A program made the translations under genes and the position numbers. From Thraustochytrium sp. TN22 (Eukaryota > Sar > Bigyra > Thraustochytrida > Thraustochytriidae), in assembly GCA_013306675.1 (NCBI GenBank), contig JABLUY010000106.1, forward strand, positions 54,499 through 118,498: a stretch of DNA of 64,000 nucleotides, in the 5' to 3' direction. The notes under the pieces were generated by a model. That model worked only from the letters and a program-made list of their open reading frames with translations. It was not told where the DNA came from and ran no database searches. Below, in pieces: positions 9,972-28,700 of this stretch; the stretch's first letter is position 1, and every line of letters starts with the position of its first letter.

Positions 9972-11405
9972 CTAGCTAGCCTTTGCCTTCGCTTTGCGGG
10001 CCACCTTCTTAGCGCGCATACCTGATTTTGCGCTGCCCTTCTCTCGGCCACTGCCACCGCCAGAGCCCTCGTGCGAGGGCACGCTCGCACGCACGATCGA
10101 CGACCGCGCGGACGTCCTCACGCGAGCGTCCTCATCGTCCGAGTCCTCCATGTCCTCGAGATCAAAGCGACCCACCGACACGCGCGAAGGCTTGTTGGGC
10201 TTCGACGAGACTCGAAACTCGTCTTCGGACATTGACGAGGAGGAAGAGGAGTCCTCCGCGTCTTCAGAGGACACATCGGCTGACTCCATCGCGGAGGGTG
10301 GCGGCAGCACCTTGCGCTTCTTTGTCGCGGACGCCGGCGTAATGGTCGTAGACCGGGCGGAGGCCACCAGCGAAGCATAGTCCTCGGCGTCCGGAAAGGA
10401 TTGGGAGACCGAGATCGTGTGCCGCCGCTTCGTGGCCTTGGCGGCCGCGACCTGCGCCGAGGGCGCCTTGGCCGGTGTACGGATGGTCGTCGTACGCGCC
10501 GAGGTCTCCAGGTCGGCGGCATCCTCCCCCTCCACGGCAAAGGACGCCTCGGCGGCCACCGAGATTGTCCGGCGCCGCTTCTTCTGCTGGTTGTGAGCCG
10601 CGGCAGATGGTGCTGGAATTGACGTTGCGGGGGGAATAGGCACCGCTCCTGAAGCTGTTGTTGGTGCTGGTGCTGCAACAGAGGCTGACGACGCCAACCT
10701 CGCAGGCGAGCGAATCGTCGTGGAGCGAGCCGAGATCGCCGCGAGTGCGTCAGCATCGGTGCCGCGGGTAGCCGTCACGACGATAGTCTCCTGGGCCCCC
10801 GATGGAGGTGGAGCATGGCCATTAGCAGCCCCATGACCGTTGGCAGCCGCATGGCCATTGGCCTTGGCGAGAACGCGCGATGAGGAGGCTGACACACGCA
10901 GCGCCGCCTCAATCTCGTCGCCATTTGGATCGGTCCTGGTCACTGCAATGACACGTGAGGACGTGCTGGCCCGGGCTGACGGGGTTGACACCTGCGTAGC
11001 GGCCGGGGCCGGGACAGCAACCGCAGCAGGCGCGCCGTTCCGCTGCACCTTGCTTTGCTTCTGCTGCGCGGGACGCACCACCGAGCTTGACGCAGACAAC
11101 GCGAAAGCACTCTCGGCGTCAGAATCGGAGTCCTCGCCGCCCAGCGTTTCTGAGGCCATCACGGAGATTCGCATCGCCGGCGGCGACGCGACACGCGCCA
11201 CCGGCAAGACCGTGGTACGCTCTGCTTCTTCTCGCGGGCGCTTTTCAGTGGCCCTTTTCACCCGTGCACCTGCTGACTGCTTCTCCATGGTCTTCTTCTG
11301 TTGTGATTCATTCTCCGCGTCTTTTTCGTCTTTTCCATCGTGCTCGTCCTCCTCCTCGTCGTCGCTCCCCTCTTCCTCGTCCTCGTCATTCCCTTTGTTT
11401 TTGTC

Positions 11406-11436
<31 letters not shown>

Positions 11437-13956
11437 TCGCTGCTACTGGAGCCGTCTTCGCTGACAGCCTCCTTGGTTTCCTGACCGTCGCTGTCGGCAG
11501 CGCTCTCGACACCATTGCTGTCCTCCAAGTCCTCGTCCAAGTCCTCCTGCGCGCCCACACCCCCAATCTGCATCGCAGCCTGAGGGACCTGGTCGGACGC
11601 AGCGTAGTGATTGACGCCGTAGGAGACGGAGAGGGCGAGCGGAGCCCCGTTGACGGCATTGAGCTGGAGCGTGAGCTTCTCGAAAGAATCCACGCCGGCC
11701 GAGGCAAGGTCGAACTCCAAAGATCCCGTGCCGTGTTGCAGGTCGATCTGCGTGGCCAACCTCTTGGTCTCAAAGAAAGGGGCGCCGGGTTCAGGGCTGG
11801 CCACGCGGCAGCTGAGTTCCAGAACGGCGTTAATATCGCAGTGATAGCCCCGCGCAGTGAAGGTCTCGACGTTGTGCGGTGCGAGGAGCGCAGGGAACTC
11901 GTCCGCCTCCTCGCTCTGCAGCTCGAGCACGCAGACTCGCAGGCGCCACGGCACGCTCCCAGTGAGCTGGCCCTTGCGCAGGAACTCGGGGAAGAAGTTC
12001 TTGTCGTACATGATACTGAGCGTGACGTGTTTCGTGGCGCCCTCCATTTGCATGAGGACATTGCGCTTGAGGACGAGGCCAGGGAGAACATCAAACTCCT
12101 CCTGGCGCACGAGGTGTGCCTCGACCTCGTCTCCGTTGCCGCCCTCGAGCGTGCGACCGGTGAGCTCCTCCCACTTGCGCTTGAACTCCTCGTGCTCGAC
12201 GAGCTCGAGCTGCTTCAGGTCACCCTCGATGCAGCGCTGCGCGACGGCCCACAGCGGCCGCGACACGGCGAAGCGGCGCGTGCACGTCTGGCAGATGGGT
12301 GTGCGGCACACCGGGCACTTCACCTGGCCCGTGTCCATGTTCTCGAGCTGCAGCATCGCATTGAGAAGGCACAAGCGGCAGAAGGCGTGGCCGCACGGAA
12401 TGCTCACAGGCTTGAACATCAGAGACAGGCACATATTGCAGGTCAGGTCCTCGCAGAGCGCCTTGGAGTCGCGACTGAACACGCGCCAGTCCAGGGCCCT
12501 ATCGGGCTGCGTCACGCTGTCGTCGTCCGGACCCGCGCCCTCCAGCTCACGCAGCCCATGCATGCGCCGGAGCGAGTTGACGTCGTACGTGGCGCCGCCC
12601 TGCAACGACGGCAGGCTCGCGGCTTCATCGTCGTCGTCGTCGTCGTCGTCTTCCATGTCCTCGTCCGACGCTGTCTCGCTGGCCGGCGCGCGCGCCTCTC
12701 GCCTCCCACGCACAAGCCGCTTCCCGCCACGCGCGGTGGGTTGCTCATCGTCATCCGACGTGCTGCTAGAAGACCCATCCGAGTCAGCGGCCTTGGCCGC
12801 GCTGGCGTTGGAGCTCGTAGCGAACTTCTTCTTGACCGGGCTCGTGGCCGAGCTCGCGGCACGCTTCGTAGCCGAGCTTTCGGCAGGCTTCTCAGACTCG
12901 TCCGAGTCCGACTCGTCCGACTCGTCCGAAGCGGAATCAGCAACGATCTTGCTCGTCGCTGCAGCACGCTTCTTGACAGAGCTCTCCACGGAAGTGTCTG
13001 CAACGCCCTCGATGGGTGGCTTCTTGGACCGTGTGTCACCCGAGCCGGAGTCAGACTTGGCGTCGGCAATCGCCGCGCTCGTCGCGCCACGCTTCTTAGC
13101 AGAGGACGTCTTGGACACGGCGCTCGCGGTTGGGTCGCGGAAGGCGGGCTTCTTTGACGACGAGTCGTCCGAGTCCGAGTTGGAGTCCGAGTCCGAGCCC
13201 GAGCCCGAATGCGCATCCGCCGCGCTTGTCGTGGCCGCCGTTTCCTTCTTTGCTGCACTCGCAGTAGGCTTGTCAGAATTGTCAGAATCAGAGTCAGAGT
13301 CAGAGTCAGAGTCAGCACTCGCCGCATTCGCGGCGGGCTTCTTGGCTGACACACTCGCGACAGGCTTTTTCGCCTCGTCTTTGTCATCGTCATCGTCCGA
13401 GTCATCATCCTCATCGTCCGAGTCTGCACTCGCCGCACTCGCAGCGGACTTCTTGGACGATGCAGTCGCGACAGGCTTCTTGGACGATGCAGTCGCGACA
13501 GGCTTCCTGGCCTTGTCATCGTCATCGTCATCATCATCATCATCATCATCGTCTGAGTCATCGTCATCGTCTGAGTCAGCGATTGCAGCGCTCGTGACGG
13601 GCTTCTTGGCCGCTTGGCTCGCGACAGCCTTCTTAGACGATGCAGCCTTGACAGGCTTCTTGACCTGGTCCTCCTCATCGTCATCGTCCTCCTCATCGTC
13701 CGAGTCAGCGATCGCAGCGCTCGTGGCGGGCTTCTTGGCCGCTTGGCTCGCGACAGGCTTCTTGGACGATGCAGCCTTGACAGCCGTCCCGGCCTTGTCC
13801 TTCTCATCGTCATCGTCCGAGTCATCGTCCGAGTCATCGTCCGAGTCATCGTCCGAGTCAGCGATCGCAGCGCTCGTGGCGGGCTTCTTGGCCGCTTGGC
13901 TCGCGACAGGCTTTTTGGACGATGCAGCCTTGACAGCCGTCCCGGCCTTGTCCTTC

Positions 13957-14012
<56 letters not shown>

Positions 14013-14121
14013 CGAGTCAGCGATCGCAGCGCTCGTGGCGGGCTTCTTGCCCGCTTTGCTCGCAACAGTCTTCTTGGACGATGCAGCCTCGACAGGCTTC
14101 CTGGTCTTCTTGTCCTTCTCA

Positions 14122-14180
<59 letters not shown>

Positions 14181-14996
14181 TGAGTCAGCGATCGCAGCGC
14201 TCGTGGCGGGCTTTTTGGCTCCTTGGCTCGCGACAGGCTTCTTGGCCTCGACAGGCTTCCTGGTCTTGTCCTTCTCACCGTCACCGCCCGAGTCATCGTC
14301 TGAGTCAGCGATCGCAGCGCTCGCGGCACGCTTCTTGGCCGCTTGACTCGCACCTGGCGTCTTGCCCGCCTTGTCGACCGTAGGCTTCTTGGCTGACGCA
14401 GCCGCGGCAGGCTTCCTGACCTTGTCGTTCTCATCGTCGGAGCCGGAGTCGGAATCGGATTTCGAGTCGGCGTCGGCGTGAACGACTGTTTTGCGCGTAA
14501 CAGGCTTCTTCGTCGACGTCGTAGCCTTGGCGTCCTCGTCCTCGTCCCCGGACGAGGCGGAATCGCTGGACTCGTTGTCTGAGTCGGGCAGTACAAGCGG
14601 CAGGCCCGGGGTACGAGCGGCCTGGCCCGCGCCTCGAGCGGTCGGTGCCGGGCTGTACTTGTTGATGGCCTGCTCGGCGCGGCTCAGGAGCGCAGCGGTA
14701 GCGCTCGCGGGCGGGTGCTCCGAGTCGGAGCTGCTGGCCGACCCTCGGCTATCTGCCCTGTTTCGAGCCTGCGGGCGGTCGTCCTCCTTCTCCGCAGCAG
14801 TCTGCGTGCTTTTCGCCTTGTTCTCCTCCTTGTTCTCCTCCTTGTTCTCCTCCTCATCCTTCTTCTTCTTCTTCGCCGCCGCCGCCTTGTCGCCCGTGCC
14901 CGCGGCGCTCGCCTCGCGCGCCCTGCCCCTGGTCGCGGGCGCCTGCAGCGCCGCGCGCGCCGCCGCGCGCCTCTTGCGAGCCCCTTGGCTCGCCAT
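9972..14996 (-). CDS. Giant acidic repeat-rich RING-finger protein
   Basis: This 1,674-residue intronless protein starts at the ATG at 14996. Residues 1-80 are Lys/Ala/Glu-rich with E-E-N-K repeats. About 100-820 is a Nopp140-like low-complexity region: units of K-K-P-x-A-S-x-A-A-K-K-P-A-T-S-A-A-I-A-D-S followed by Asp runs of variable length. About 848-905 is a C3HC4 RING finger (C-N-M-C, C-G-H-A-F-C-R-x-C, C-P-V-C). About 930-1110 is a folded-looking region rich in beta strands, then another acidic block. The C-terminal 450 residues repeat a short S-A-R-(S/T)-(S/T)-(T/I)-(I/V)-R motif. RING fingers usually recruit ubiquitin-charged E2 enzymes; the acidic Ser/Asp tracts suggest CK2 phosphorylation and a nuclear or nucleolar location (inference). 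No orthologue is recognised. It faces the lipase-like gene head to head. Confidence 0.75.
13579..14357 (-). repeat. Coding minisatellite in the RING gene (K-K-P-A-T-S-A-A-I-A-D-S unit)
   Basis: Six tandem units start at about 13579, 13707, 13861, 14019, 14187 and 14307, each opening with a well-conserved segment near GCGATCGCAGCGCTCGTGGC. Spacing varies (128, 154, 158, 168, 120 bp) almost entirely through the number of Asp/Glu codons in each unit. More diverged units continue to about 12750. Confidence 0.85.
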
Positions 14997-15039
14997 GCTC
15001 GCCGCCGCCGCCGCCGCCGCCGCCTGCGCTCGCGCTCGC

Positions 15040-15070
<31 letters not shown>

Positions 15071-15553
15071 GCGGGCGGTGACAGGCTGCGGTTTTGAAAA
15101 CATCTACAGCCTGAGAGAGCGCTGGCTGGCGGCGGCATGCTCCACAGCATAACCATCCGCATGGTCCGGCGAGGCGTGCGCGCGGGAGTGGCGCGGGAGC
15201 GCGGCGGGCGAGCTGGCATGCTGCGCCGCGCGCGCGGCCCCGCGTCCAGCGCCCGGCAGCGTCGTCTTCAATCGCTCGTCGCGGCCATGAGCGGTCCGGA
15301 CGAGCATGGTTGCGTCATGGCTCGAAAAGCATCCCAAAGGCAGCAGCAGCAGCGGCAGCAGCAGCAGCAGCAGCAGCTGCTGCTGCTGCTGCTGCAGCCT
15401 TGAACCTGGGACGCGCGCGCAGCGGGGCTCCGCAGACCTGCAGCGCGAGCCGCCCACGAACGCGGCTCCGCGCGGCGGCAGCGCGCGTTGCGGCCGACCG
15501 GCGCGGAAGGATCCTCGCGCGCCGCGCCCATCGTCGGCCCCCGGCATGCCGCC

Positions 15554-15587
<34 letters not shown>

Positions 15588-15795
15588 TGCCACTGCGCGG
15601 CGCGCAGGCCCGCCCGGCGCGCGGCCCGGCCGGCCCGGCGCCGGCGCGGCGCGGCCGGCGCGGCGCGGCGCGGAGCCCGGGGTGGCGCAGCGCAGGACCC
15701 GCTGGCGCCGGCATGCGCGCGACCAGGCTGGACGGCGCGGAACTACAACGAGCTGCGCGGGGCAACACACGCGCGCGCGGGCGGGCGGCGGCGCG
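14997..15795. promoter_or_regulatory. Divergent promoter region between RING and lipase-like genes
   Basis: About 800 bp with no supportable gene. It contains CCG-repeat tracts (15002-15070 and 15545-15595) and a CAG/CTG palindrome at 15341-15394. The open frame upstream of 15796 is made of poly-Ala codons from these repeats and is not treated as coding. Confidence 0.4.
15341..15394. repeat. CAG/CTG inverted trinucleotide repeat (perfect 36-bp palindrome)
   Basis: A CAG run with one CGG interruption (15341-15376) is followed without spacer by six CTG units (15377-15394). Positions 15359-15394 are a perfect palindrome with 18-bp arms centred on CAGCTG. Confidence 0.95.
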
Positions 15796-17628
15796 ATGGC
15801 GCGCGGGCGGGCGGCGGCGCGGGCGGCGCTGGCGGCGCTGGCGGCGCTGGCGGTGCTGGCGGTGCTGGCGGCGCCGGCGGAGGCGGCGGAGGCGCCGGCG
15901 GAGGCGCCGGCGCTGGCGTGCGCGGCGGGCGAGGGCGCCGAGGAGGGCAGCTGCGAGGCGGCGGGCGCGGCGGAGGCGGCGGGCGCGGCGGCGCGCATGT
16001 CTCGGACGGAGCGGGAGAAGGAGGAGCTGCGCAAGCTCAAGGCGGAGTGGCAGCGTGAGCGCGAGGAGGCCGGCCGCGGCGAGTCGAGCAGGAGCGAGGC
16101 AGTGTACGGGTTCTTTCGGCGCACGCTGGGGCTGCCGCTGCACGACGTGCGGTTTACGCTGGGCGTGGGCGCGGTGCTGACGGCGGTGGTGTTTCTGTTC
16201 AATCTGGCGTTCCAGTACGACGTGGACCGGAAGAATGACCCGGACGGTACCAAGGCGATGGCGGCGATGAACCACATGCACTCGTTCGCAGCGCTGCAGC
16301 TGCTGCGCGATCGGATGCTGCCGTGGCTACCGCTGGAGGTTCTGCTGGGCGTGGAGGAGATTCTCACGGACGATCTGTATGACTGGGTGGACGGCTACGA
16401 GGGCGACGGGTCGCTGGTGGTGGACTCGGCGCTGCTGCTGCAGGAACGGTCAGGACGGCGCAAGGGGATCTGGCGCGCGGACGACTCGAGCCTGGTGGGC
16501 GCGCCGCACGTGGTGGACCGCTCGCTGCGGTCGCGCGCGTCCAGGGTTCTCTCTGTGCTGGTGGACGGCCCGACAGCGAAGGAGGACGTGGTGCTGGACG
16601 AGCCCGGCCTGCGCGTGGTGGCCGACTTTCTGACGGAGACGCTGCTGGTCTGCGTGTACGAGTCGCGCAAGGAAGACACGCGCTGCGCGCTGCGCGCCGC
16701 GCTGCGGTCGGCGCGGGCGCCGCGGGACGCGCTGAGCTCGGTCTCGCTGGCGCCCGGGTGCGCACCGATCCAGGTGCTGCGGTCCGTGGCGCGGCGCGTG
16801 AAGCAGCTCGAGGAGGCGCTGCTGCGCGGATCCGTGGCGCGCGCCGTGGAGGAGCACGCAGGCTTCAGTGTGCAGCTGGTGGGCCACGGCATGTGCGGTT
16901 CGGTGGCGGCCGCCACGGTGGCGGCGGTCTACGCCGTGCCAGCGGGCTCGCACGAGGGCTGGGCGTTCCAGGGCGACCGTCGCCGGCTGGCGGCCATGGC
17001 GTTTGGCGCCATGCCCGCGGTGTCCGGCCTGCCGGACTCGTCCGAGGCCATGGACCGCGTTGTCACGTTCGTGCACGACGCGGACCTCTTGCCGCGGTTG
17101 AGCCCGTTATCGCTGAGCCGCGCGCGACGGCTTTTTACCGGGCTCGGTACGGTAGCACCGAGCGCCGCGCGCTTCGAGGCGGTGCTGGCAGACGCGCCCA
17201 GCTCGGAGCTCGACCGCAAGTTGCGCAAGCTGATTGAGGATATTCCTGGTGTGGTGGCGCCTGCGGCGCAAGGCGTATCCGACGCGCCCGAGGTGCCCGA
17301 GGTGCAGCACGTGGGGCGCGTCGTGGTGCTTCTGCGCCGTGCGCACGGCGACAGCCTTGCGGCGGACTACGACGACGACGACGAGGACGACGAGGACGAG
17401 GACGAGGACGAGGATCAAGAGGAGAGTCAGGATGGTGGGGCGATCCTGGTGGGCGGCACCGGGGCCGGCTTCGCCGCCATGCCCAAGAAGAAGCAGCACG
17501 AGTACAGCTGGCACGAGGTGACGCCGCGTGCCGCGGCGCGCCTGAGCCTGCTCGGCGCCACGGACTGCGTGTTCTGCCACGCGCCGGTCAAATACGAGGA
17601 GGCTCTACGCGGCGCCTTGAGCGCGTAG
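15796..17628 (+). CDS. Membrane-anchored lipase-3/DAG-lipase-like protein, probable pseudoenzyme
   Basis: This gives 610 residues from the ATG at 15796, which begins a plausible signal peptide (R-rich start, then about 20 Ala/Leu/Val residues). Residues 68-100 are a charged helix and about 120-139 a transmembrane helix. The rest resembles the alpha/beta-hydrolase lipase-3 domain: a strand F-S-V-Q-L-V-G-H-G-M-C-G-S-V-A-A-A at the nucleophile elbow (residues about 358-374), followed by H-D-A-D-L-L-P-R-L-S, like the N-D-x-V-P-R-L-S of diacylglycerol lipases. The elbow should read G-H-S-L-G-G; here residue 365 is Gly instead of the catalytic Ser, so hydrolysis is unlikely. A 15-20-residue Asp/Glu run (about 523-545) precedes the C-terminus. 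If functional, it may be a structural or lipid-sensing pseudolipase. Confidence 0.6.
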   Translation: MARGRAAARAALAALAALAVLAVLAAPAEAAEAPAEAPALACAAGEGAEEGSCEAAGAAEAAGAAARMSRTEREKEELRKLKAEWQREREEAGRGESSRSEAVYGFFRRTLGLPLHDVRFTLGVGAVLTAVVFLFNLAFQYDVDRKNDPDGTKAMAAMNHMHSFAALQLLRDRMLPWLPLEVLLGVEEILTDDLYDWVDGYEGDGSLVVDSALLLQERSGRRKGIWRADDSSLVGAPHVVDRSLRSRASRVLSVLVDGPTAKEDVVLDEPGLRVVADFLTETLLVCVYESRKEDTRCALRAALRSARAPRDALSSVSLAPGCAPIQVLRSVARRVKQLEEALLRGSVARAVEEHAGFSVQLVGHGMCGSVAAATVAAVYAVPAGSHEGWAFQGDRRRLAAMAFGAMPAVSGLPDSSEAMDRVVTFVHDADLLPRLSPLSLSRARRLFTGLGTVAPSAARFEAVLADAPSSELDRKLRKLIEDIPGVVAPAAQGVSDAPEVPEVQHVGRVVVLLRRAHGDSLAADYDDDDEDDEDEDEDEDQEESQDGGAILVGGTGAGFAAMPKKKQHEYSWHEVTPRAAARLSLLGATDCVFCHAPVKYEEALRGALSA

Positions 17629-18141
17629 TTCTGTGTACAAAGAGATCTTTTTCAGAGAAGCCAAGCGAGCAAGCGAGCGGGCGAACAAGCGACCTCGAAC
17701 GAAAAGGCAGAAGAGGACGCAGGGCCGTGAAACAATGCTGACAGTGAGTGCGGCATGCGTGCAGCATAAGAACGTGCAAGCAAGCCTTTGAGCCCCTGGC
17801 GATGCGAGTTTGCCGGAACAAATGAAGCCTTGCCCCACGATGGAACGCAGGAAACACGAAGGAAGGGAATGAAGGGTCGAAAAGCTAACTCTCGCAGCAA
17901 GGGGAGCTTTGGCATCTGGTGCTGCTGCAACAAGAGGGTCCCCATCCGCGTCACCATGCCCTGCCTTGGTGATGCTTTGTCTCAAAGGAGGACACTCTTA
18001 CTCAGCAGAACCGCAAGCTCGCTCGCCGCTTCGGGTTGCCGGGCGGACGCGGCTGCGCGCTTCTCCCCGCACGGGCGCGCTCTGCTGCAGGCGGCGCGCG
18101 CTCCGGCGTCTTCTCTTGCACGCGCTCAGCTTGCACGCGCT
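17629..18141. other. Intergenic sequence before the assembly gap
   Basis: This holds the 3' flank of the lipase-like gene and moderately GC-rich sequence. A frame open from 17788 into the gap shows no recognisable protein similarity. Whether part of the following TPR gene lies here cannot be decided because the gap intervenes. Confidence 0.3.
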
Positions 18142-18950
18142 NNNNNNNNNNNNNNNNNNNNNNNNNNNNNNNNNNNNNNNNNNNNNNNNNNNNNNNNNNN
18201 NNNNNNNNNNNNNNNNNNNNNNNNNNNNNNNNNNNNNNNNNNNNNNNNNNNNNNNNNNNNNNNNNNNNNNNNNNNNNNNNNNNNNNNNNNNNNNNNNNNN
18301 NNNNNNNNNNNNNNNNNNNNNNNNNNNNNNNNNNNNNNNNNNNNNNNNNNNNNNNNNNNNNNNNNNNNNNNNNNNNNNNNNNNNNNNNNNNNNNNNNNNN
18401 NNNNNNNNNNNNNNNNNNNNNNNNNNNNNNNNNNNNNNNNNNNNNNNNNNNNNNNNNNNNNNNNNNNNNNNNNNNNNNNNNNNNNNNNNNNNNNNNNNNN
18501 NNNNNNNNNNNNNNNNNNNNNNNNNNNNNNNNNNNNNNNNNNNNNNNNNNNNNNNNNNNNNNNNNNNNNNNNNNNNNNNNNNNNNNNNNNNNNNNNNNNN
18601 NNNNNNNNNNNNNNNNNNNNNNNNNNNNNNNNNNNNNNNNNNNNNNNNNNNNNNNNNNNNNNNNNNNNNNNNNNNNNNNNNNNNNNNNNNNNNNNNNNNN
18701 NNNNNNNNNNNNNNNNNNNNNNNNNNNNNNNNNNNNNNNNNNNNNNNNNNNNNNNNNNNNNNNNNNNNNNNNNNNNNNNNNNNNNNNNNNNNNNNNNNNN
18801 NNNNNNNNNNNNNNNNNNNNNNNNNNNNNNNNNNNNNNNNNNNNNNNNNNNNNNNNNNNNNNNNNNNNNNNNNNNNNNNNNNNNNNNNNNNNNNNNNNNN
18901 NNNNNNNNNNNNNNNNNNNNNNNNNNNNNNNNNNNNNNNNNNNNNNNNNN
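18142..18950. other. Assembly gap (809 N)
   Basis: An uninterrupted run of N. It hides the 5' end of the TIR-like/TPR gene. It lies next to a highly homogenised repeat array, so the assembly here may also have collapsed or mis-sized sequence. Confidence 1.
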
Positions 18951-21900
18951 TAGCGCGGTGATCTTCCTGGACCGCTGGGACGAGCCCGCGCCGCTGCAGC
19001 GCGCATGGTGCGTGTGGGAGATGTACGGCGCCGTCCGCAGCCGCCGCCCGTTTCACGTCATCTACGCGCCCGGCCAGGAGGAGCGCTTCATCGAGACGCT
19101 TCTGGAGAAGCCAAGCAACGTCGCCACCATCATGGCCCGCAACATGGACATGCGCAACGCGCAGTGCTGGAAGGCCGAAGACAAGGCCATGATCGACGCC
19201 GCCGTCAACGACAAGCTCCCGGACGGATACACCACGCTGAACGCGGAGGTGCAGGGCCGCCAGCGCGACTGGCTGACCGGCATCGCGCGCGGCAAGGTCG
19301 ACGAGACCCGGCGCCAAGGCGGCGACATGCTCCAGATGGCACTCGTGCTTGCGCAAGTCGGGTCATTGGTGTTGACTCAAGCCGACTACGAAGGCGCCTT
19401 GCAGTACTATCGCGAGGCCACGGAGATTTACAAGGACAATCTCGGGCCGCGGCATCCAAACGTGGCGACCACGCTCAACAACATGGGGCTGGTGCACCAA
19501 GCCCAGGGCCGCTACGAGGAGGCGCTGCGGTGCTACGAGGAAGACTTGTCGATCCGGCAAGAAGCCCTCGGGCCGCGGCACCCTTCAGTGGCGACCACGC
19601 TCAGCAACATGGGTGGCGTGCATAGAGCCCAGGGCCGCCACGAGGAGGCGCTGCGGTGCTACAAGGAAAGTTTGTCGATTCGGCAAGAAGCCCTCGGGCC
19701 GCGGCATCCTGACGTGGCGGTCACGCTCAACAACATGGGTACAGTGCACAAGATCCAGGGCCGCTACGAGGAGGCGCTGCGGTGCTACGAGGAAAGTTTG
19801 TCGATTCGGCAAGAAGCCCTCGGGCCGCGGCATCCTGACGTGGCGGCCACGCTCAACAACATGGGTACAGTGCACAAGATCCAGGGCCGCTACGAGGAGG
19901 CGCTGCGGTGCTACGAGGAAAGTTTGTCGATTCGGCAAGAAGCCCTCGGGCCGCGGCATCCTGACGTGGCGGTCACGCTCAACAACATGGGTACAGTGCA
20001 CAAGATCCAGGGCCGCTACGAGGAGGCGCTGCGGTGCTACGAGGAAAGTTTGTCGATTCGGCAAGAAGCCCTCGGGCCGCGGCATCCTGACGTGGCGGTC
20101 ACGCTCAACAACATGGGTACAGTGCACAAGATCCAGGGCCGCTACGAGGAGGCGCTGCGGTGCTACGAGGAAAGTTTGTCGATTCGGCAAGAAGCCCTCG
20201 GGCCGCGGCATCCTGACGTGGCGGTCACGCTCAACAACATGGGTACAGTGCACAAGATCCAGGGCCGCTACGAGGAGGCGCTGCGGTGCTACGAGGAAAG
20301 TTTGTCGATTCGGCAAGAAGCCCTCGGGCCGCGGCATCCTGACGTGGCGGTCACGCTCAACAACATGGGTACAGTGCACAAGATCCAGGGCCGCTACGAG
20401 GAGGCGCTGCGGTGCTACGAGGAAAGTTTGTCGATTCGGCAAGAAGCCCTCGGGCCGCGGCATCCTGACGTGGCGGTCACGCTCAACAACATGGGTACAG
20501 TGCACAAGATCCAGGGCCGCTACGAGGAGGCGCTGCGGTGCTACGAGGAAAGTTTGTCGATTCGGCAAGAAGCCCTCGGGCCGCGGCATCCTGACGTGGC
20601 GGTCACGCTCAACAACATGGGTACAGTGCACAAGATCCAGGGCCGCTACGAGGAGGCGCTGCGGTGCTACGAGGAAAGTTTGTCGATTCGGCAAGAAGCC
20701 CTCGGGCCGCGGCATCCTGACGTGGCGGTCACGCTCAACAACATGGGTACAGTGCACAAGATCCAGGGCCGCTACGAGGAGGCGCTGCGGTGCTACGAGG
20801 AAAGTTTGTCGATTCGGCAAGAAGCCCTCGGGCCGCGGCATCCTGACGTGGCGGTCACGCTCAACAACATGGGTACAGTGCACAAGATCCAGGGCCGCTA
20901 CGAGGAGGCGCTGCGGTGCTACGAGGAAAGTTTGTCGATTCGGCAAGAAGCCCTCGGGCCGCGGCATCCTGACGTGGCGGTCACGCTCAACAACATGGGT
21001 ACAGTGCACAAGATCCAGGGCCGCTACGAGGAGGCGCTGCGGTGCTACGAGGAAAGTTTGTCGATTCGGCAAGAAGCCCTCGGGCCGCGGCATCCTGACG
21101 TGGCGGTCACGCTCAACAACATGGGTACAGTGCACAAGATCCAGGGCCGCTACGAGGAGGCGCTGCGGTGCTACGAGGAAAGTTTGTCGATTCGGCAAGA
21201 AGCCCTCGGGCCGCGGCATCCTGACGTGGCGGTCACGCTCAACAACATGGGTACAGTGCACAAGATCCAGGGCCGCTACGAGGAGGCGCTGCGGTGCTAC
21301 GAGGAAAGTTTGTCGATTCGGCAAGAAGCCCTCGGGCCGCGGCATCCTGACGTGGCGGTCACGCTCAACAACATGGGTACAGTGCACAAGATCCAGGGCC
21401 GCTACGAGGAGGCGCTGCGGTGCTACGAGGAAAGTTTGTCGATTCGGCAAGAAGCCCTCGGGCCGCGGCATCCTGACGTGGCGGTCACGCTCAACAACAT
21501 GGGTACAGTGCACAAGATCCAGGGCCGCTACGAGGAGGCGCTGCGGTGCTACGAGGAAAGTTTGTCGATTCGGCAAGAAGCCCTCGGGCCGCGGCATCCT
21601 GACGTGGCGGTCACGCTCAACAACATGGGTACAGTGCACAAGATCCAGGGCCGCTACGAGGAGGCGCTGCGGTGCTACGAGGAAAGTTTGTCGATTCGGC
21701 AAGAAGCCCTCGGGCCGCGGCATCCTGACGTGGCGGTCACGCTCAACAACATGGGTACAGTGCACAAGATCCAGGGCCGCTACGAGGAGGCGCTGCGGTG
21801 CTACGAGGAAAGTTTGTCGATTCGGCAAGAAGCCCTCGGGCCGCGGCATCCTGACGTGGCGGTCACGCTCAACAACATGGGTACAGTGCACAAGATCCAG

Positions 21901-23037
21901 GGCCGCTACGAGGAGGCGCTGCGGTGCTACGAGGAAAGTTTGTCGATTCGGCAAGAAGCCCTCGGGCCGCGGCATCCTGACGTGGCGGTCACGCTCAACA
22001 ACATGGGTACGGTGCACAAGGCCCAGGGCCGCTACGAGGAGGCGCTGCGGTGCTACGAGGAAAGTTTGTCGATTCGGCAAGAAGCCCTCGGGCCGCGGCA
22101 TCCTGACGTGGCGACCACGCTCAACAACATGGGTACAGTGTACGACGACCAGGGCCGCTACGAGGAGGCGCTGCGGTGCTACGAGGAAAGTTTGTCGATT
22201 TGGCAAGAAGCCCTCGGGCCGCGGCATTCTTCAGTCGCGACCACGCTCAACAACATGGGCAGCGTGTACGACGCCCAGGGCCGCGACGAGGAGGCGCTAC
22301 GGTGCTACGAGGAAAGTTTGTCGATCTTCAGAAAAGCCCTCGGGCCGCGGCATCCTGACGTGGCGACCACGCTCAACAACATGGGTAGCGTGTACTGGAA
22401 GCAGGGCCGCTACGAGGAGGCGCTGCGGTGCTACGAGGAAAGTTTGTCGATTCGGCAAGAAGCCCTCGGGCCGCGGCATCCTGACGTGGCGACCACGCTC
22501 AACAACATGGGTACAGTGTACGACGACCAGGGCCGCTACGAGGAGGCGCTGCGGTGCTACGAGGAAAGTTTGTCGATTCGGCAAGAAGCCCTCGGGCCGC
22601 GGCATCCTTCAGTGGCGACCACGCTCAACAACATGGGCAGCGTGTACGACGCCCAGGGCCGCGACGAGGAGGCGCTACGGTGCTACGAGGAAAGTTTGTC
22701 GATCTTCAGAAAAGCCCTCGGGCCGCGGCATCCTGACGTGGCGACCACGCTCAACAACATGGGTACCGTGTACGGGAAGCAGGGCCGCTACGAGGAGGCG
22801 CTGCGGTGCTACGAGGAAAGTTTGTCGATTCGGCAAGAAGCCCTCGGGCCGCGGCATCCTTTAGTGGCGACCACACTCTTGAACATTGCCGCGCTGCATT
22901 GCGATCGCAAGGCATGGAGGACCGCGCTCCCGCTCCTGGAGGAAGCTGAGAGCATCTACTTGGAGTCGCTCGGCGCGGGCCACCCAAACACGCAGAATCT
23001 GCAGGGATGGCTCCGCGATTGCCGCGAGAACCTGTAG
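18951..23037 (+). CDS. TIR-like/kinesin-light-chain TPR repeat protein, 5' end in gap
   Basis: 1,361 residues are visible after the gap. The first segment, V-I-F-L-D-R-W-D-E-P then R-A-W-C-V-W-E-M-Y and P-F-H-V-I-Y, resembles the strand-'S-x-W-C-x-x-E-L'-strand part of TIR domains; that assignment is inference from a fragment. A roughly 110-residue helical linker follows. Then come 27 intact 42-residue TPR units of the kinesin-light-chain/TPR_12 type (N-N-M-G...Q-G-R-Y-E-E-A-L-R-C-Y-E-E-S-L...L-G-P-R-H-P-x-V-A) and a 28th diverged capping unit (L-L-N-I-A-A-L-H) before the C-terminus. Units 3-20 are almost identical in DNA and protein. Such TPR superhelices bind peptides. TIR plus TPR would fit a signalling or innate-immunity-like receptor in a protist, but no function is shown. 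Confidence 0.8.
19729..22878 (+). repeat. 126-bp tandem TPR-coding repeat array
   Basis: The repeat period is exactly 126 bp (42 codons). Counting from the N-N-M-G codon of each unit, units begin at 19477+126k. Units 3-20 (19729-21996) carry the K-I-Q-G-R signature and differ by only a few bases, for example unit 4 has GCC for GTC. Units 22-24 and 25-27 are a duplicated three-unit block (378 bp). Units 1-2 and 28 are diverged edges. Confidence 0.95.
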
Positions 23038-23491: not shown

Positions 23492-24868
23492 CTAGGAGCG
23501 GCCGGGCCGGGGAAGTTTACAGGCCGGAGGAGACAACTGCGCGCGGGAGCCGGCAAAGGCGATGTCGGCGACGCAGTCGGGCGAGACGACGTCTTCGGAG
23601 CGAAAGTACTCGGGGAAAACCTCGCGCACAAAACCGAGGAGGATGGACTTGCAGTGCGCGAGGCGGCCCGGGTGGACGGCGTCGAGGCTAGGGCCGAGCG
23701 CGGCACAGCGGCAGTTGCAAATGTCGAGGGCGCAGAGCAGGCTGGCGGTGGCCGCCTCGGAAGGGGTGAACTGGACGAACGCGTACTCGCAGAGGACGAT
23801 CTCCAAAAAGGTCTCTGCGAAGGAAAGCACCTTCTCGCGCAGCTTCCTGTCCACACTGTCAAAGTAGAGGATGAGGTGGCGCAAGAAGTCAAAGGGCGTG
23901 ACCGGGTTGAGTTCCCAGGACAGCACGCGTAGGAGCTCGAGCTCCATGAGGCGGATGTCGGACTCGAGGTAGATGCCCTCGGCCAGGCCCTGGAGCTCCT
24001 TGATGCTGATGGGGCGCGTCTCGTACAGCTTGGTGGCAATGAGGATCGCAGCCAATGCGACCAGTTGCAGGATGCACTTTTTCGTGCTGACGTGGCTAAG
24101 GTATCTGTCCACGTAGTTCATGGCCGTGGTGACGGTGCAGACGCTGATGTCGTACTCGTCGACAAACTCGAACATCCACTCGAAGAGCCGCGAGCGCCAC
24201 ACCGGTCGCATGCCATCCACCTGCACGGACTCGATGTAGTCTTCGCGGACCGCGTAGCGGCGCTCGGCGCCCAGCATCCGCGCCAGCCGGTCGCGCAGCT
24301 CGTCGCGCTTGGGCACGAGCTGCTGCCCGCACGTCTCGGCGGCGGCGGCCTCGGCGGCGGCTTGCAGCTGCGCAGCGTCCGCCGCGACCGCCTCCTGCTC
24401 CTCCTCGTCGTCGGCGAAGAAGTCCGCGTCCGCGTCCGCGTCGACGTGGGCGTGGGCGTGGGCGTGGCGGCCGTGGGCGTGCGCCTCGTTCAGGTCCGCC
24501 CCGGCCTCCAGCAGCACGAGGTCGTGGTCGCCGTCCGCGTCCGCCTCGCCCCTGCCGCAGCACGGCGTGGGTGGCGCGTCGCCGTCCTCCTCGGTCTCCA
24601 CGCCTCCGTGGTCGGGCGCCGGGTAGTAGCCGTACGCGCGGCCGCCGCCGCGGTCGTTGGCTGCCGCCGCGGCGGCCGCGTCCCAGGTCGCGGCCGCCCC
24701 GCGGCGCACGCTCGCCGCCTCCTTGCCGGCGGCCTCGCGCGAGCCGCCCTGCTCGGGGGCCGGCTCCTCGTGCGCGCCGCGCGTCGCCGCGCCTGCGCGC
24801 CCGCCGTCGTGCTCGCAGCCGGCGGCGTCGCCGGCGGCGGCGCTCGCATCGCGCATGGCCTCCGCCAT
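23492..24868 (-). CDS. Cyclin (cyclin-D/B-like cyclin box)
   Basis: The protein has 458 residues from the ATG at 24868. Residues 1-200 are Ala/Gly/Glu-rich and low in complexity, with a His/Ala-rich stretch and an acidic run near 128-160. The cyclin box starts at about residue 220: W-R-S-R-L-F-E-W-M-F-E-F, Y-V-D-R-Y-L-S, L-Q-L-V-A-L-A-A-I-L-I-A-T-K-L-Y-E, then M-E-L-E-L-L-R-V-L-S-W-E-L-N-P-V-T-P. A second helical domain ends near residue 430. These match the N-terminal cyclin fold, including the Lys of the A-x-K-x-x-E motif that contacts the CDK PSTAIRE helix. No RxxL destruction box or LxCxE Rb motif is evident, so the subtype is uncertain. The frame remains open about 300 codons upstream but is low-complexity there. 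Confidence 0.85.
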   Translation of the reverse strand: MAEAMRDASAAAGDAAGCEHDGGRAGAATRGAHEEPAPEQGGSREAAGKEAASVRRGAAATWDAAAAAAANDRGGGRAYGYYPAPDHGGVETEEDGDAPPTPCCGRGEADADGDHDLVLLEAGADLNEAHAHGRHAHAHAHVDADADADFFADDEEEQEAVAADAAQLQAAAEAAAAETCGQQLVPKRDELRDRLARMLGAERRYAVREDYIESVQVDGMRPVWRSRLFEWMFEFVDEYDISVCTVTTAMNYVDRYLSHVSTKKCILQLVALAAILIATKLYETRPISIKELQGLAEGIYLESDIRLMELELLRVLSWELNPVTPFDFLRHLILYFDSVDRKLREKVLSFAETFLEIVLCEYAFVQFTPSEAATASLLCALDICNCRCAALGPSLDAVHPGRLAHCKSILLGFVREVFPEYFRSEDVVSPDCVADIAFAGSRAQLSPPACKLPRPGRS

Positions 24869-25783
24869 GGCCACCTCGGGCAGCTCCGGCAGGCAGGCAG
24901 GCAGGCAGGCCGGCCGGCAGGCAGCTCCGGCAGGCAGCGCAGGGGGAGGGCCGGCAGACAGCCACGCGGGAGCGCGCCCGCGCCGCCGCCCGCGCCGCGC
25001 GGTCGCCGCCGCCGCCGCCCGCCCGCTCGGCAGGCCGGCTAGGGTTTGCCGCGCCTGCCGCGGCGCCTGCTGCGGCCTCTCCGCCGCCGCTGTCGCCGCC
25101 TGTTTCCGCGCTCGATTCCCTGTTTCCCGCCCGCTTTGCGCCTGTTTCCCGCCGCCTCGCCCCACTTGCGCGCCGCTCGCGCGCCACTTGCGCGCCGCCT
25201 TCGTTGGGCGCCGCGCGGACTCGCGCGCTGCCCCCGCCGGCCGCCGCCCGCAGCGCAGCGGCTGCGGGCGCAGGGGCGCCGCCCGCCGCCGCGCGCGCGC
25301 TTCCAGCGGGCGGGCGCGCGGCCGGCGGCGCCGGCGCGTCGCCAGCGCGGCGAGGCCGGCGGCGCGATGCGATTGGGCGGCGCGAGGCGCCGCGCGGCGC
25401 CGGCAGCCTGGCGCGGCGGCCGGCGCGGCGACCAACGGCGGCGCCCCCGCAGAGCGGTGCGGGTTCCCCGCGGCTGTTGCTGCTGGAGCAGCTTCCGAGC
25501 CGCGCGGGTGTGGGGTTCGAGGGCGCGTAGCCTCGATACGAGATGAAAGACGCGCGCGCGGACCCGAGCCGGAGAAGCTGCAGTCGGCGGCAGCTGTTGC
25601 TGTTGCGCGCAATCGACGGCTGCGATGTGATGGCTGCCGCGACTGCCTGCCTGCGCAGCACGAGCCGAGCCGAGCGATTGGCTGCCTTGCTCGGCTGGCT
25701 GCCTGCTTGTGGTCGATCAACTTGAAATAGGAAGGAAGGAAGGGAGGAGGGAAGGAAGGCCAGACCGGCCTCGCCGAGGCCAC
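24869..25783. promoter_or_regulatory. 5' flank of the cyclin gene
   Basis: A GC-rich 5' region with a GGCA tetranucleotide run (about 24887-24925). Long frames are open on both strands but low-complexity and without family similarity. Presumed 5'UTR and promoter. Confidence 0.35.
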
Positions 25784-28700
25784 TGCACTCCGCCCGCCAG
25801 CTCCGGAGGTTTGATCGACCGGGCTGCAGCCAGAAGGACAGGATCAGATCAGGCTGCGCGGCCAGTGAGATGAAATGAGCCGCCGCAACGCACGCCCCTG
25901 CCAAGCCTGGTCGAACCGACGAGTCGAGCCGAGCCGAGCCAAGCCGAGCCAAGCCGCGTCAACTTGAGTGGAGTCGAGCCTGTCGAGGCGAGGCGAGTCG
26001 ACTCGAGCCGAGGCCCTTTGTCAGCGCGCCGCCAATCAAACCACGCCGGGCCTGCCTCCTGGCCTGCGAGCGCGAGCGCATGTAGGAAAAGGAAGCGGCC
26101 GAAAGCCCTCGAAAGACAGCTAGCTGGGCAGGTAGAAAGACAGGCGAGCCTCGAAAGACAGGCAGGCAGCCAGCCAGCCACAAGGCAACAAACCGAACGC
26201 AAGAGCGAAGCACTACAACTTGAAGCGAGCTGTCGGCCGGCGCAGCGAGTCAGCGAGGGCTAAACGTCGGAAGGCCTGTCAGGATATGAACGGCAGCACG
26301 CCGCGTGGGCCCAAGCGAGCGAGCGAGCGAGTGGGGGACGGTGCGGCCGGCTGGCTGCAGCGGTCGCCTGCCACAGGCTGCTTGCTACTTTTAGATAAGT
26401 AGTGCCTCTCTCCAGCCCGCTAGCTCCTAGGCTAGCTCAGGCTGGTGCCGCAGCGGCTTGTCGAGTCGAGTCGATTCCTTCATCACAGTCGGTGCAACGG
26501 AGATGGACGATGATTGCCTGACAGTGATGGTGAGAGGCTGGGTGCGCCGGCGAACGCAAAGCACGGCTTATCGCCGCGTCTCTCATCTGAGTCACTGTCA
26601 GCAGGCAAACAGACCGTGACAGACAGCCAGGGTGCGCTGGGAGAGCGAGGCGGGAAGCGGCCCGGCAGCTGGACGGTGGCCTGGCTGCCGGTGGACATAA
26701 TGCTTGCGGGGAGAAGGCTCAAGTCGAGCGCGGCGCCGTCGAGCTGTTGTCCTCCGGATAAGATCCGTACTCGCGCTTAGGCCTAAGATTGAGCGCCGTG
26801 GTGAAAGCGATGACGCGACGCGGGATGGCGAGTAGCGCCGCTGTGTGAGGTTGCGTCGCAGCCCTTGTCACCGCGAATCCGGCCGCGAGGGCCTTGCCCT
26901 GGCATCTCCGCAAGGTCGAATCCGCGTGGCGTCGCGACTACAGCTGTTCATCAGGGCCAACGGCGGCGTCGAACAAGGGCATCATGACGGAAGCTCGGGG
27001 AGCTTGAAAGCAGTGGGTCCTGCCTGCACAAGCGCGGCTGTGGCGCGCTCGGCGGCCGCCCCCTTGCTACTCCTCATCGACGTCGCCGATTCAGGCAGCG
27101 TCCAGCAGCCAGCCAGACTCCTCCACAGCTCCAGCTTGCGCTTGGCAGACCTCAAGGGCACGGGCGCAGCGCGCGCACAGGCGCTGCGCAGCGCAGCTGC
27201 CGGCAGCACGGCTACCAACTTTGCCTTCTTGGAGCCAACTAACAACCAACCAGCCAGCTGGCAAACGGGCGACACCTGATCGTCCACCAAAGCACGCCAC
27301 CAGCCTGCTAGCGGCCTGCCAGCCAGTGTCAGGCGGCGCAGCCGCAAGGTGTTGGTTGAAAGCGTTGAAGCTCAAGTAGCCAGGCCGCATCCGAGTTCGA
27401 GTCGCGGTGTAGTAACTAAGCTAGACGGCGCTCTTGTGCGGAAGTGGACGAGCAGGAACCGTTGGGGCAGTATGGGGCGCCGCCCTCGCTTTGTCGCTTG
27501 CCTCCAATGGTATGCAGGGCCCCGCAAAGGAGGGCATGGCAGGCACTGCCGGCGCCGCCGCGGCCCGAACGCGCTGCTAGCGGTGAGGTCCAATTCCAGA
27601 CCCTTGCCGGCGTGCTCGCGAGGTGCGTCGGACGGCAGGGCGGCGCACGTCATCATCATCATCATCACGCCATGCACTCGAAACGCGGCGCGTTGAAAGA
27701 GGGCAAGGCACGCGATCAGACGTCACTCGGGTGCTTGCGGAAGTCCTGCGGGGAATGAGTTGCTGCACTGGTCCGGCCGCATCGGCCACAGCGGGCCTCT
27801 GCCACCGCTCGCTGGGCGCTCACTCGGCGACGGCCGCGAGCGCGATCAAGATCGTGCAGGCTTGCTTGGCTTGCTTCCCCTGGCTCTCCTTGGACGAGCA
27901 CGGCCGCTGGCCGCCAAGGCTGCCTTACAGGCAGGCCTACCTGCAGCGTGCGCGAAGGCGCGTTGCCAGTTCTGCCAGCGGTGCATCAGGCCGTGGGCAC
28001 GAGTCGCACGACAACCTCTCCTGTCGGGCTGCTGGCTGGAGCTGCCGAGCTGCAAGGCAGTTCAACCTGGCTGCTGGCCAACAGCTGCGCAAGAAGCTGG
28101 GGGAGATAGGAAGCATGAGGTAGCTTGGACGTCTCGGCGAGGCACCCCGAGGACACTTGACCGCCTCAGCGCCATGGCATGGCTGCAGCGTTGCAAGCGC
28201 CTGCCGCGCAGGCAGGCGCGAGTCGCGCGAGTCGACCCGGAGGCGCTTGCTTTGTTCGCAAACACGCGCCGGCCAATGGGCTGGCCCCGAGTCGCCTCGG
28301 TGCGCGCTTTGCGGCCCCGCAGAAAGGGGACCGCTCAAGAAACCGTTAAACGGAGTGAGCGCCGATCCGCCCGCCCGCGCACTGCATCGGCGCCGTGCTC
28401 TCAAAGCAACCTCGAGCACGGGCCCACGGCGCGGCCCGGCCCAGCGGAACTGGACTGGACAGAGCGCGCCGGCCGTGCGCAGGCCTTGCTCCGGACGCGG
28501 GGTCCGTTCGAGGGACAGTGTCGCAATTGGGCCTGGTAGTGAGCTTGCTTGGCCCAATGGCCCGCTGCGCAGAGCACGGGGTCCTCAGCCAGGAGGCGTG
28601 TCCCGGCCGCTCCAGGCTTCTCCTCGCGGTGTGCTACAACGCCTTTGAGTATCGCCTTGCAGTGCTGTGCTTCCCTTCCTTTGCTTTCCTTTGCCTTCCT

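Follow-up and report, generated by a model that had tools for sequence, protein, structure and literature searches.

Plants, animals and fungi have well-documented large recognition repertoires, which are, to our knowledge, much less known in other protists. HET, a fungal cell-death domain related to TIR, has also been reported from stramenopiles and haptophytes, and the tetratricopeptide repeats (TPRs) of fungal NLR proteins display concave-face variability and repeat-number polymorphism, as reported by Dyrka et al. 2014 (PMC4986451). Among stramenopiles, brown-algal ROCO genes have been proposed as candidate immune receptors with a diverse repertoire (PMC11378527). Here, we analysed a 64-kb stretch of the genome of the thraustochytrid Thraustochytrium sp. 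TN22 (contig JABLUY010000106.1, positions 54,499 to 118,498, i.e. the whole stretch, called the window hereafter). It contains a gene coding for part of a putative TIR/HET-like domain followed by a long array of TPR units of the kinesin-light-chain (KLC) type. We consider it about an even bet that this gene belongs to a lineage-expanded family of TIR/HET-like-TPR recognition proteins without NB-ARC domains, comparable to fungal HET/NLR proteins.

The genes analysed below form a real family, whose architecture and variability resemble those of fungal HET/NLR repeat receptors. Judging from the fungal study (PMC4986451), both groups combine an apparent TIR/HET-type N-terminal block order, high-identity repeats and presumed concave-face variable sites, and both form large multigene families with varying repeat numbers. 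In contrast with the fungal proteins, those described here are encoded by a protist genome, no NB-ARC or NACHT domain is seen between the N-terminal domain and the repeats, the N-terminal domain reaches no HET model, and the repeat variation is that found between paralogues, not between strains. Similarly, the ROCO genes are described as having a GTPase core and exon shuffling (PMC11378527), whereas here the N-terminal domain and the repeat array are in one open frame.

The TPR gene of the window

The gene occupies positions 18952 to 23037 of the window, on the forward strand like all of its parts given below, as an open frame of 1361 codons plus a stop codon (23035-23037). Its 5' end is lost in an assembly gap of 809 N (18142-18950), which is the sole N run of the window, and AGC at 18952 is the first complete codon past this gap. 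The frame begins inside a domain (SAVIFLDRWDEPAPLQRAWCVWEMYGAVRSRRPFHVIYAPGQEE...), of which only the second half is visible in the window (18952-19140; the boundary, based on the alignment of paralogues described below and on averaged propensities, is approximate). This part contains S-A-V-I-F-L-D, R-A-W-C-V-W-E-M-Y and FHVIYAP, followed by a helix-like stretch. All the motif strings that an earlier, sequence-only reading had reported right after the gap are therefore present in frame. The W-C-V-W-E motif, as placed by the alignment of 34 paralogues, lies at 19006-19020, with its Glu at W+4. A conserved linker (MDMRNAQCWKAEDKAMI...RQRDWL) and a first partial TPR, delimited with Pfam and the same alignment, come next (19141-19440). 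They precede 27 in-register TPR units of 126 bp (19441-22842) and a diverged 28th unit (to 22968) with the C-terminal tail (22843-23034).

The closest full-length paralogue, L009 (contig C17), is 96% identical to the post-gap sequence over 489 bases. Positions 18005-18126, just before the gap, resemble its upstream flank (blastn, 73.4% over 124 columns, E 9e-18). Between the two blocks that match L009, the distance is 839 bases in L009 itself and 826 in the window. Since these spacings are alike, the gap is of the right length for the missing leader, the start codon and ~229 codons.

TRF detected a single 126-bp array at 19441-22860 (27.1 copies, 95% matches), and the Pfam models TPR_12 and TPR_10 gave E = 0 across the whole frame. 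The figure of 27 intact units given by the sequence-only reading corresponds to the units in register, as also found by unit comparison; it becomes 28 if the diverged unit is counted. The units are 42 residues long, as in KLC-type TPR proteins, and they are closest to those of KLC1 and KLC2 (phmmer, KLC1 E 3.6e-48), in agreement with the KLC character initially proposed for them. Unlike KLC1 and KLC2, which share the 42-residue unit, the proteins of this family have up to 28 units and a different N-terminal domain. As regards the N-terminal coiled coil by which kinesin light chains bind the heavy chain, no kinesin-named family is among the 14 families matched by any of the 34 N-terminal domains that we aligned. 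Kinesin light chain as the identity of the gene was set aside because of the N-terminal domain.

Of the 28 units, which fall into 12 distinct sequences at the DNA level, 17 have the same 126 bases throughout. These 17 belong to an 18-unit core (19693-21960), the remaining unit of which, at 19819, has a single difference. A genome-wide search with the core unit, in which only the best candidates were scored, yielded 199 matches; those at 100% among the matches listed are all within the window gene. Because of this confinement, the identical units point to a recent expansion or homogenization of the array in this gene. With a hidden Markov model (HMM) of the window unit, between 1 and 28 units were counted in the 35 frames that have W-C-x-W-E (the window gene and 34 others; three of these frames are cut off at the end of the locus analysed and could be longer, and copies with a broken frame, e.g. 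on contigs C2 and C56, were excluded). The window gene has the most units, and the next has 11.

It is difficult to assemble an array close to a gap when 17 of its units do not differ at any of 126 bases, and the true number of units might be lower or higher than in the contig. However, the frame is open through every unit, the flanking units differ among themselves, and units of this same length, 1-11 per array, are found in the paralogues. We regard an artefactual array length as unlikely. It would be compatible with the other readings of the gene, as it would change the number of units and not the architecture.

A large family of paralogues

The full N-terminal domain of L009 gave 112 matches in the genome that contains the window (37.9 Mb, 453 contigs). 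Merged by hand, they represent at least 100 places (about 100) on 76 contigs, fragments and frame-broken copies included, and these counts are lower bounds. In the architecture of the family, a KLC-type TPR solenoid follows an N-terminal domain of ~370 residues in the same frame. Our alignment (A1) has 34 sequences from loci L001-L058, i.e. every distinct row that is near end-to-end over the domain, with its start within residues 1-60 of the 375-residue query and its end among the final 15; duplicates were dropped. Identities of its members to L009 range from 81% down to 44%. Six residues are invariant in 34 of the 34 sequences, namely W188, D190, W248, C249, W251 and E252 (L009 numbering). 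E252 is the Glu of W-C-V-W-E, and the region of W188 and D190 falls in the gap of the window. As an N-terminal part with W-C-x-W-E recurs in many paralogues, the observation made on the window gene goes beyond chance.

No second family place is listed within the window, and the window gene is thus outside any family cluster here. Elsewhere in the genome, six copies on one strand, spaced by 3.6-4.1 kb, form a divergent tandem cluster (G000:C448:21798-41947; 33-37% identity to L009). Four near-alike copies (L010-L013, on contigs C2, C56, C293 and C358) have the N-terminal domain and the TPR part in separate frames, with ~45 domain residues matched in both frames; in two of these copies, the second frame has an open length of 3392 and 3056 codons, respectively. 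They may be either duplicated broken copies or genes with an intron.

We also looked for the family outside this genome, in collections that did not include one of eukaryote genomes. Each contig collection was scanned with two short peptide patterns, by which only close relatives could be reached. One pattern-matching stretch was found in viral_contigs and 21 in genome_contigs, none of which was confirmed, and tblastn gave no match in plasmids.

The N-terminal domain

In the middle of the domain (~residues 154-290 of L009), the conserved blocks follow each other in the order GTFVSQA, VFVWLDLFCANQ, GLHEAI-x-x-FDSAVIFLD, RAWCVWE and FHVIY; the first and third read GTFVSQARR and GLHEAITRF in the full domain, and AVIFLD stands as a block of its own before W-C-V-W-E. 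As judged from these motifs, this order would fit the TIR/HET superfamily. According to averaged propensities, which are a crude measure, the four main strand-like segments are GTFVS, VFVWLDLF, AVIFL and HVIY, and the stretches between them are helix-like.

Known TIR domains (PF01582, PF13676) have a similar block order, with W-C-x-x-E followed by a strand-like segment at a similar spacing. By eye, an S-x-[H/Q]-like block is also found ~30 residues ahead of the [W/V]-[L/V]-D block. Compared in the same way, L059, a TIR_2 protein of the same genome, has the same kinds of blocks as the family, including N-W-C-S-M-E. In contrast with TIR domains, the family has ~20 extra residues past the D block and a conserved extra N-terminal part of ~150 residues, and it obtains no HMM or profile-profile score with them. 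The Glu of W-C-x-x-E is catalytic in TIR NADases. The sequence-only reading had singled out this residue as one to look for, and it is found at W+4 in all 34 aligned domains and in the window gene. Both a TIR identity and an NADase activity of the domain may be envisaged.

Signs of relatedness to two other groups were found. HET domains are characterized by consensus blocks of the VWIDxxCINQ type and by W-x-x-x-E. Two HET (PF06985) matches are listed for the genome, one of them over the cut-off (L066, 28.5 bits), and neither is at a family place. L066 is a HET-domain sequence in a 546-codon frame (G000:C110:186306-186632). With the family HMM, it scored 8.3 bits through the pairing of VFVWIDFSCIDQ with VFVWLDLFCANQ, higher than all reported shuffles of its own sequence (3000 made, 2277 reported, best 6.7). 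The VFVWLDxFC block thus appears to be common to the family and to the genome's own HET-domain sequence, and, by eye, L066 has G-W-I-R-V-E where the family has A-W-C-V-W-E. Besides, the PADLOC model of ThsB, a TIR-like protein of Thoeris systems (PDLC00418), matches six of the 34 domains (best E 0.01). Individual scans of 19 of these 34 domains gave matches in four (L041-L044, E 0.01-0.046), and every matched stretch spans W-C-V-W-E. Unlike ThsB, the family is eukaryotic and TPR-fused. By these signs, HET and ThsB would be the nearest relatives, both matches being weak. In view of the block order, the HET block and the ThsB matches taken together, the reading that we favour is that of a TIR/HET-superfamily domain.

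A number of results weigh against this reading. None of the 34 N-terminal domains matched TIR or HET models of Pfam and NCBIfam at E <= 1. On the window frame, Pfam identified TPR_12 but no TIR in the N-terminal part; no match placed the W-C-x-W-E segment in an unrelated family. In the crude propensity plot, W-C-V-W-E scores as a strand and not as a helix, and W-C-x-x-E sits on a helix in TIR domains. The hhalign score of the family against six TIR domains (five from bacterial plasmid genes, and L059) is 11.1, below that of the reversed profile (12.6) and within the range of 200 column-shuffled controls (mean 13.6, best 26.0). Four further settings, with trimmed, global and loop-removed versions, also remained within their nulls, the score of the family being attained by 36, 7, 14 and 7 of 60 controls. 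Both profiles are thin (effective number of sequences ~2.5 and 2.9), and this failure is therefore not strong evidence of a difference from TIR. In a PDB profile search with the alignment, the hits consisted of four chains of protein A, the best of them at E 0.054, and included no TIR. With the family HMM, one shuffled TIR sequence (of 3000 made and 2095 reported) reached 9.4, which exceeds the 8.3 of L066, and the six real TIR domains scored at most 4.5; the HET sign is therefore modest. The sequence-only reading had suggested a fold prediction of the N-terminal region; an AlphaFold model of the window part alone was uninformative (all helical, mean predicted local distance difference test score 45.9). 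Finally, NB-ARC and NACHT domains are absent among the 25 of 46 hits shown for the window frame and among the 14 families matched by any of the N-terminal domains. Thus, the W-C-x-x-E spacing and the strand-like segments on either side of it, on which the proposal of a TIR-like domain had been based, are borne out, but the TIR identity is not, with no model match among the 34 domains and hhalign scores within those of shuffled controls.

These data may be explained in another manner, by a lineage-specific family of scaffolds or cargo adaptors that would bind partners in the way of KLC, with an unrelated or new, structural N-terminal domain in which W-C-x-W-E resembles TIR by chance. KLC1 and KLC2 are indeed the best matches of the TPRs, the TIR and HET models fail at the sequence level, W-C-V-W-E scores as a strand, and neutral, minisatellite-like slippage can expand arrays. 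However, five ordered TIR/HET-like blocks with an invariant W-x-x-x-E and the HET-block match speak against such a family, and one would not usually expect a housekeeping adaptor to have spread to some hundred places. We consider this explanation possible but rather doubtful.

Variation among the TPR units

We analysed codon changes between the units within each of 11 paralogues, after dropping unit pairs that are more than 30% different, counting within-gene duplicates once and excluding the 28th unit of the window gene. The unit positions with most nonsynonymous change are 17, 10, 39, 20, 21, 7 and 13. Among them, positions 10, 13, 17, 20 and 21 correspond to TPR positions 2, 5, 9, 12 and 13 (Pfam TPR_1 register, residues 1138-1168 aligned to profile positions 1-31), which we take to be the groove face and the expected binding positions. 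All five groove positions are within the top seven of 42 sites (hypergeometric 2.5e-5; permutation 1e-5), the top-seven cut having been chosen after the values were seen and the permutation performed on rounded values. The mean proportion of nonsynonymous differences (pN) is 0.47 at the five groove positions vs 0.07 elsewhere.

Further points of caution for a receptor come from the same repeats. The ratio of pN to its synonymous counterpart (pN/pS) for whole units is 0.82 in the window gene and 0.65 in the 11 paralogues. As these values are not above 1, positive selection is not demonstrated. TPR proteins in general vary at groove positions, and the variability is therefore not specific to receptors. 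Thus, for the ligand-binding, rapidly evolving solenoid imagined by the sequence-only reading, the variable sites are where they would be expected, in the groove, but the pN/pS ratios do not exceed 1.

Distinct units have a mean identity of 75% within genes vs 61% between genes. Nevertheless, the nearest relative of a unit is in the same gene for only 50 of 175 units, which indicates that within-gene homogenization is partial. On these grounds, we rejected homogenization within genes as the sole process.

Possible function of the family

For TIR/HET-like-TPR recognition proteins, a mechanism may be envisaged in which the TPR groove would bind a ligand, with specificity shifting as groove positions are substituted and as whole units are gained, lost or shuffled. 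Ligand binding would bring the N-terminal domains together, and a TIR/HET-type activity of these domains, which might be NAD+ cleavage by the invariant Glu at W+4, would then serve to signal or to kill. The fold, oligomerization, enzymatic activity, recognition and immune or allorecognition role that we infer would make the family the undescribed recognition system that had been suspected from the window gene. In titles and the beginnings of abstracts, and with partial coverage of the literature, we found no published account of this family, or of TIR proteins in the genomes of thraustochytrids or Labyrinthulomycetes.

TIR_2 (PF13676) matches are found at 128 places of the genome, 114 of them over the curated cut-off, and NB-ARC has two matches. 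The genome is thus TIR-rich and NB-ARC-poor. We tentatively propose, with more doubt than confidence, an NB-ARC-independent protist repertoire of up to a hundred TIR/HET-like-TPR receptors beside about as many TIR_2 matches. Specificity would be generated by TPR amplification and reshuffling, the modules differing mostly at groove residues. If true, this would add another route towards large innate or allorecognition repertoires to those taken by the NLRs of plants and fungi and by the ROCO genes of algae. If the N-terminal domain is a working TIR/HET effector, the genome would offer dozens of natural experiments on how changes of repeat arrays are linked to recognition when there is no NB-ARC switch. 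The organism would then also be a protist suited to tests of NAD+-based death and of allorecognition.

The genes might alternatively serve strictly in allorecognition between strains, like fungal het genes, and not in immunity against pathogens. Incompatibility genes of fungi are among the HET-domain genes whose repeats are highly conserved (PMC4986451, PMC10890737), and the same genome harbours a HET-domain sequence together with its TIR_2 matches. By analogy, such a role may be considered, although we deem so strict a restriction improbable.

Genomic context

Several of the TIR_2 matches are in tandem (contigs C160, C288, C407, C433 and C447), separate from the TPR family. The 115 TIR_2 places that were compared (the 114 over the cut-off and one below) include none that overlaps a family place. 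Five family places are at most 5 kb from a TIR_2 match (contigs C407, C6, C53, C145 and C17).

In the window, the TPR gene is flanked by RING-finger, lipase-like and cyclin frames. The RING-finger frame (9972-15314, reverse strand) has 1780 codons and long acidic tandem repeats rich in D, S and K. The lipase-like frame (15115-17628, forward strand) has a borderline class 3 lipase match, at 22.4 bits vs a cut-off of 22. The cyclin frame (23492-25843, reverse strand; Cyclin_N 4.7e-26) is downstream of the TPR gene and convergent with it. Elsewhere in the genome, there are two pfaD-type matches of 668 and 661 bits (C124:42424-43761 and C415:117114-118451), the frames of which have 2083 and 1719 codons. 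They point to a polyunsaturated fatty acid synthase, an enzyme that fits a thraustochytrid, present as two copies or two haplotypes.

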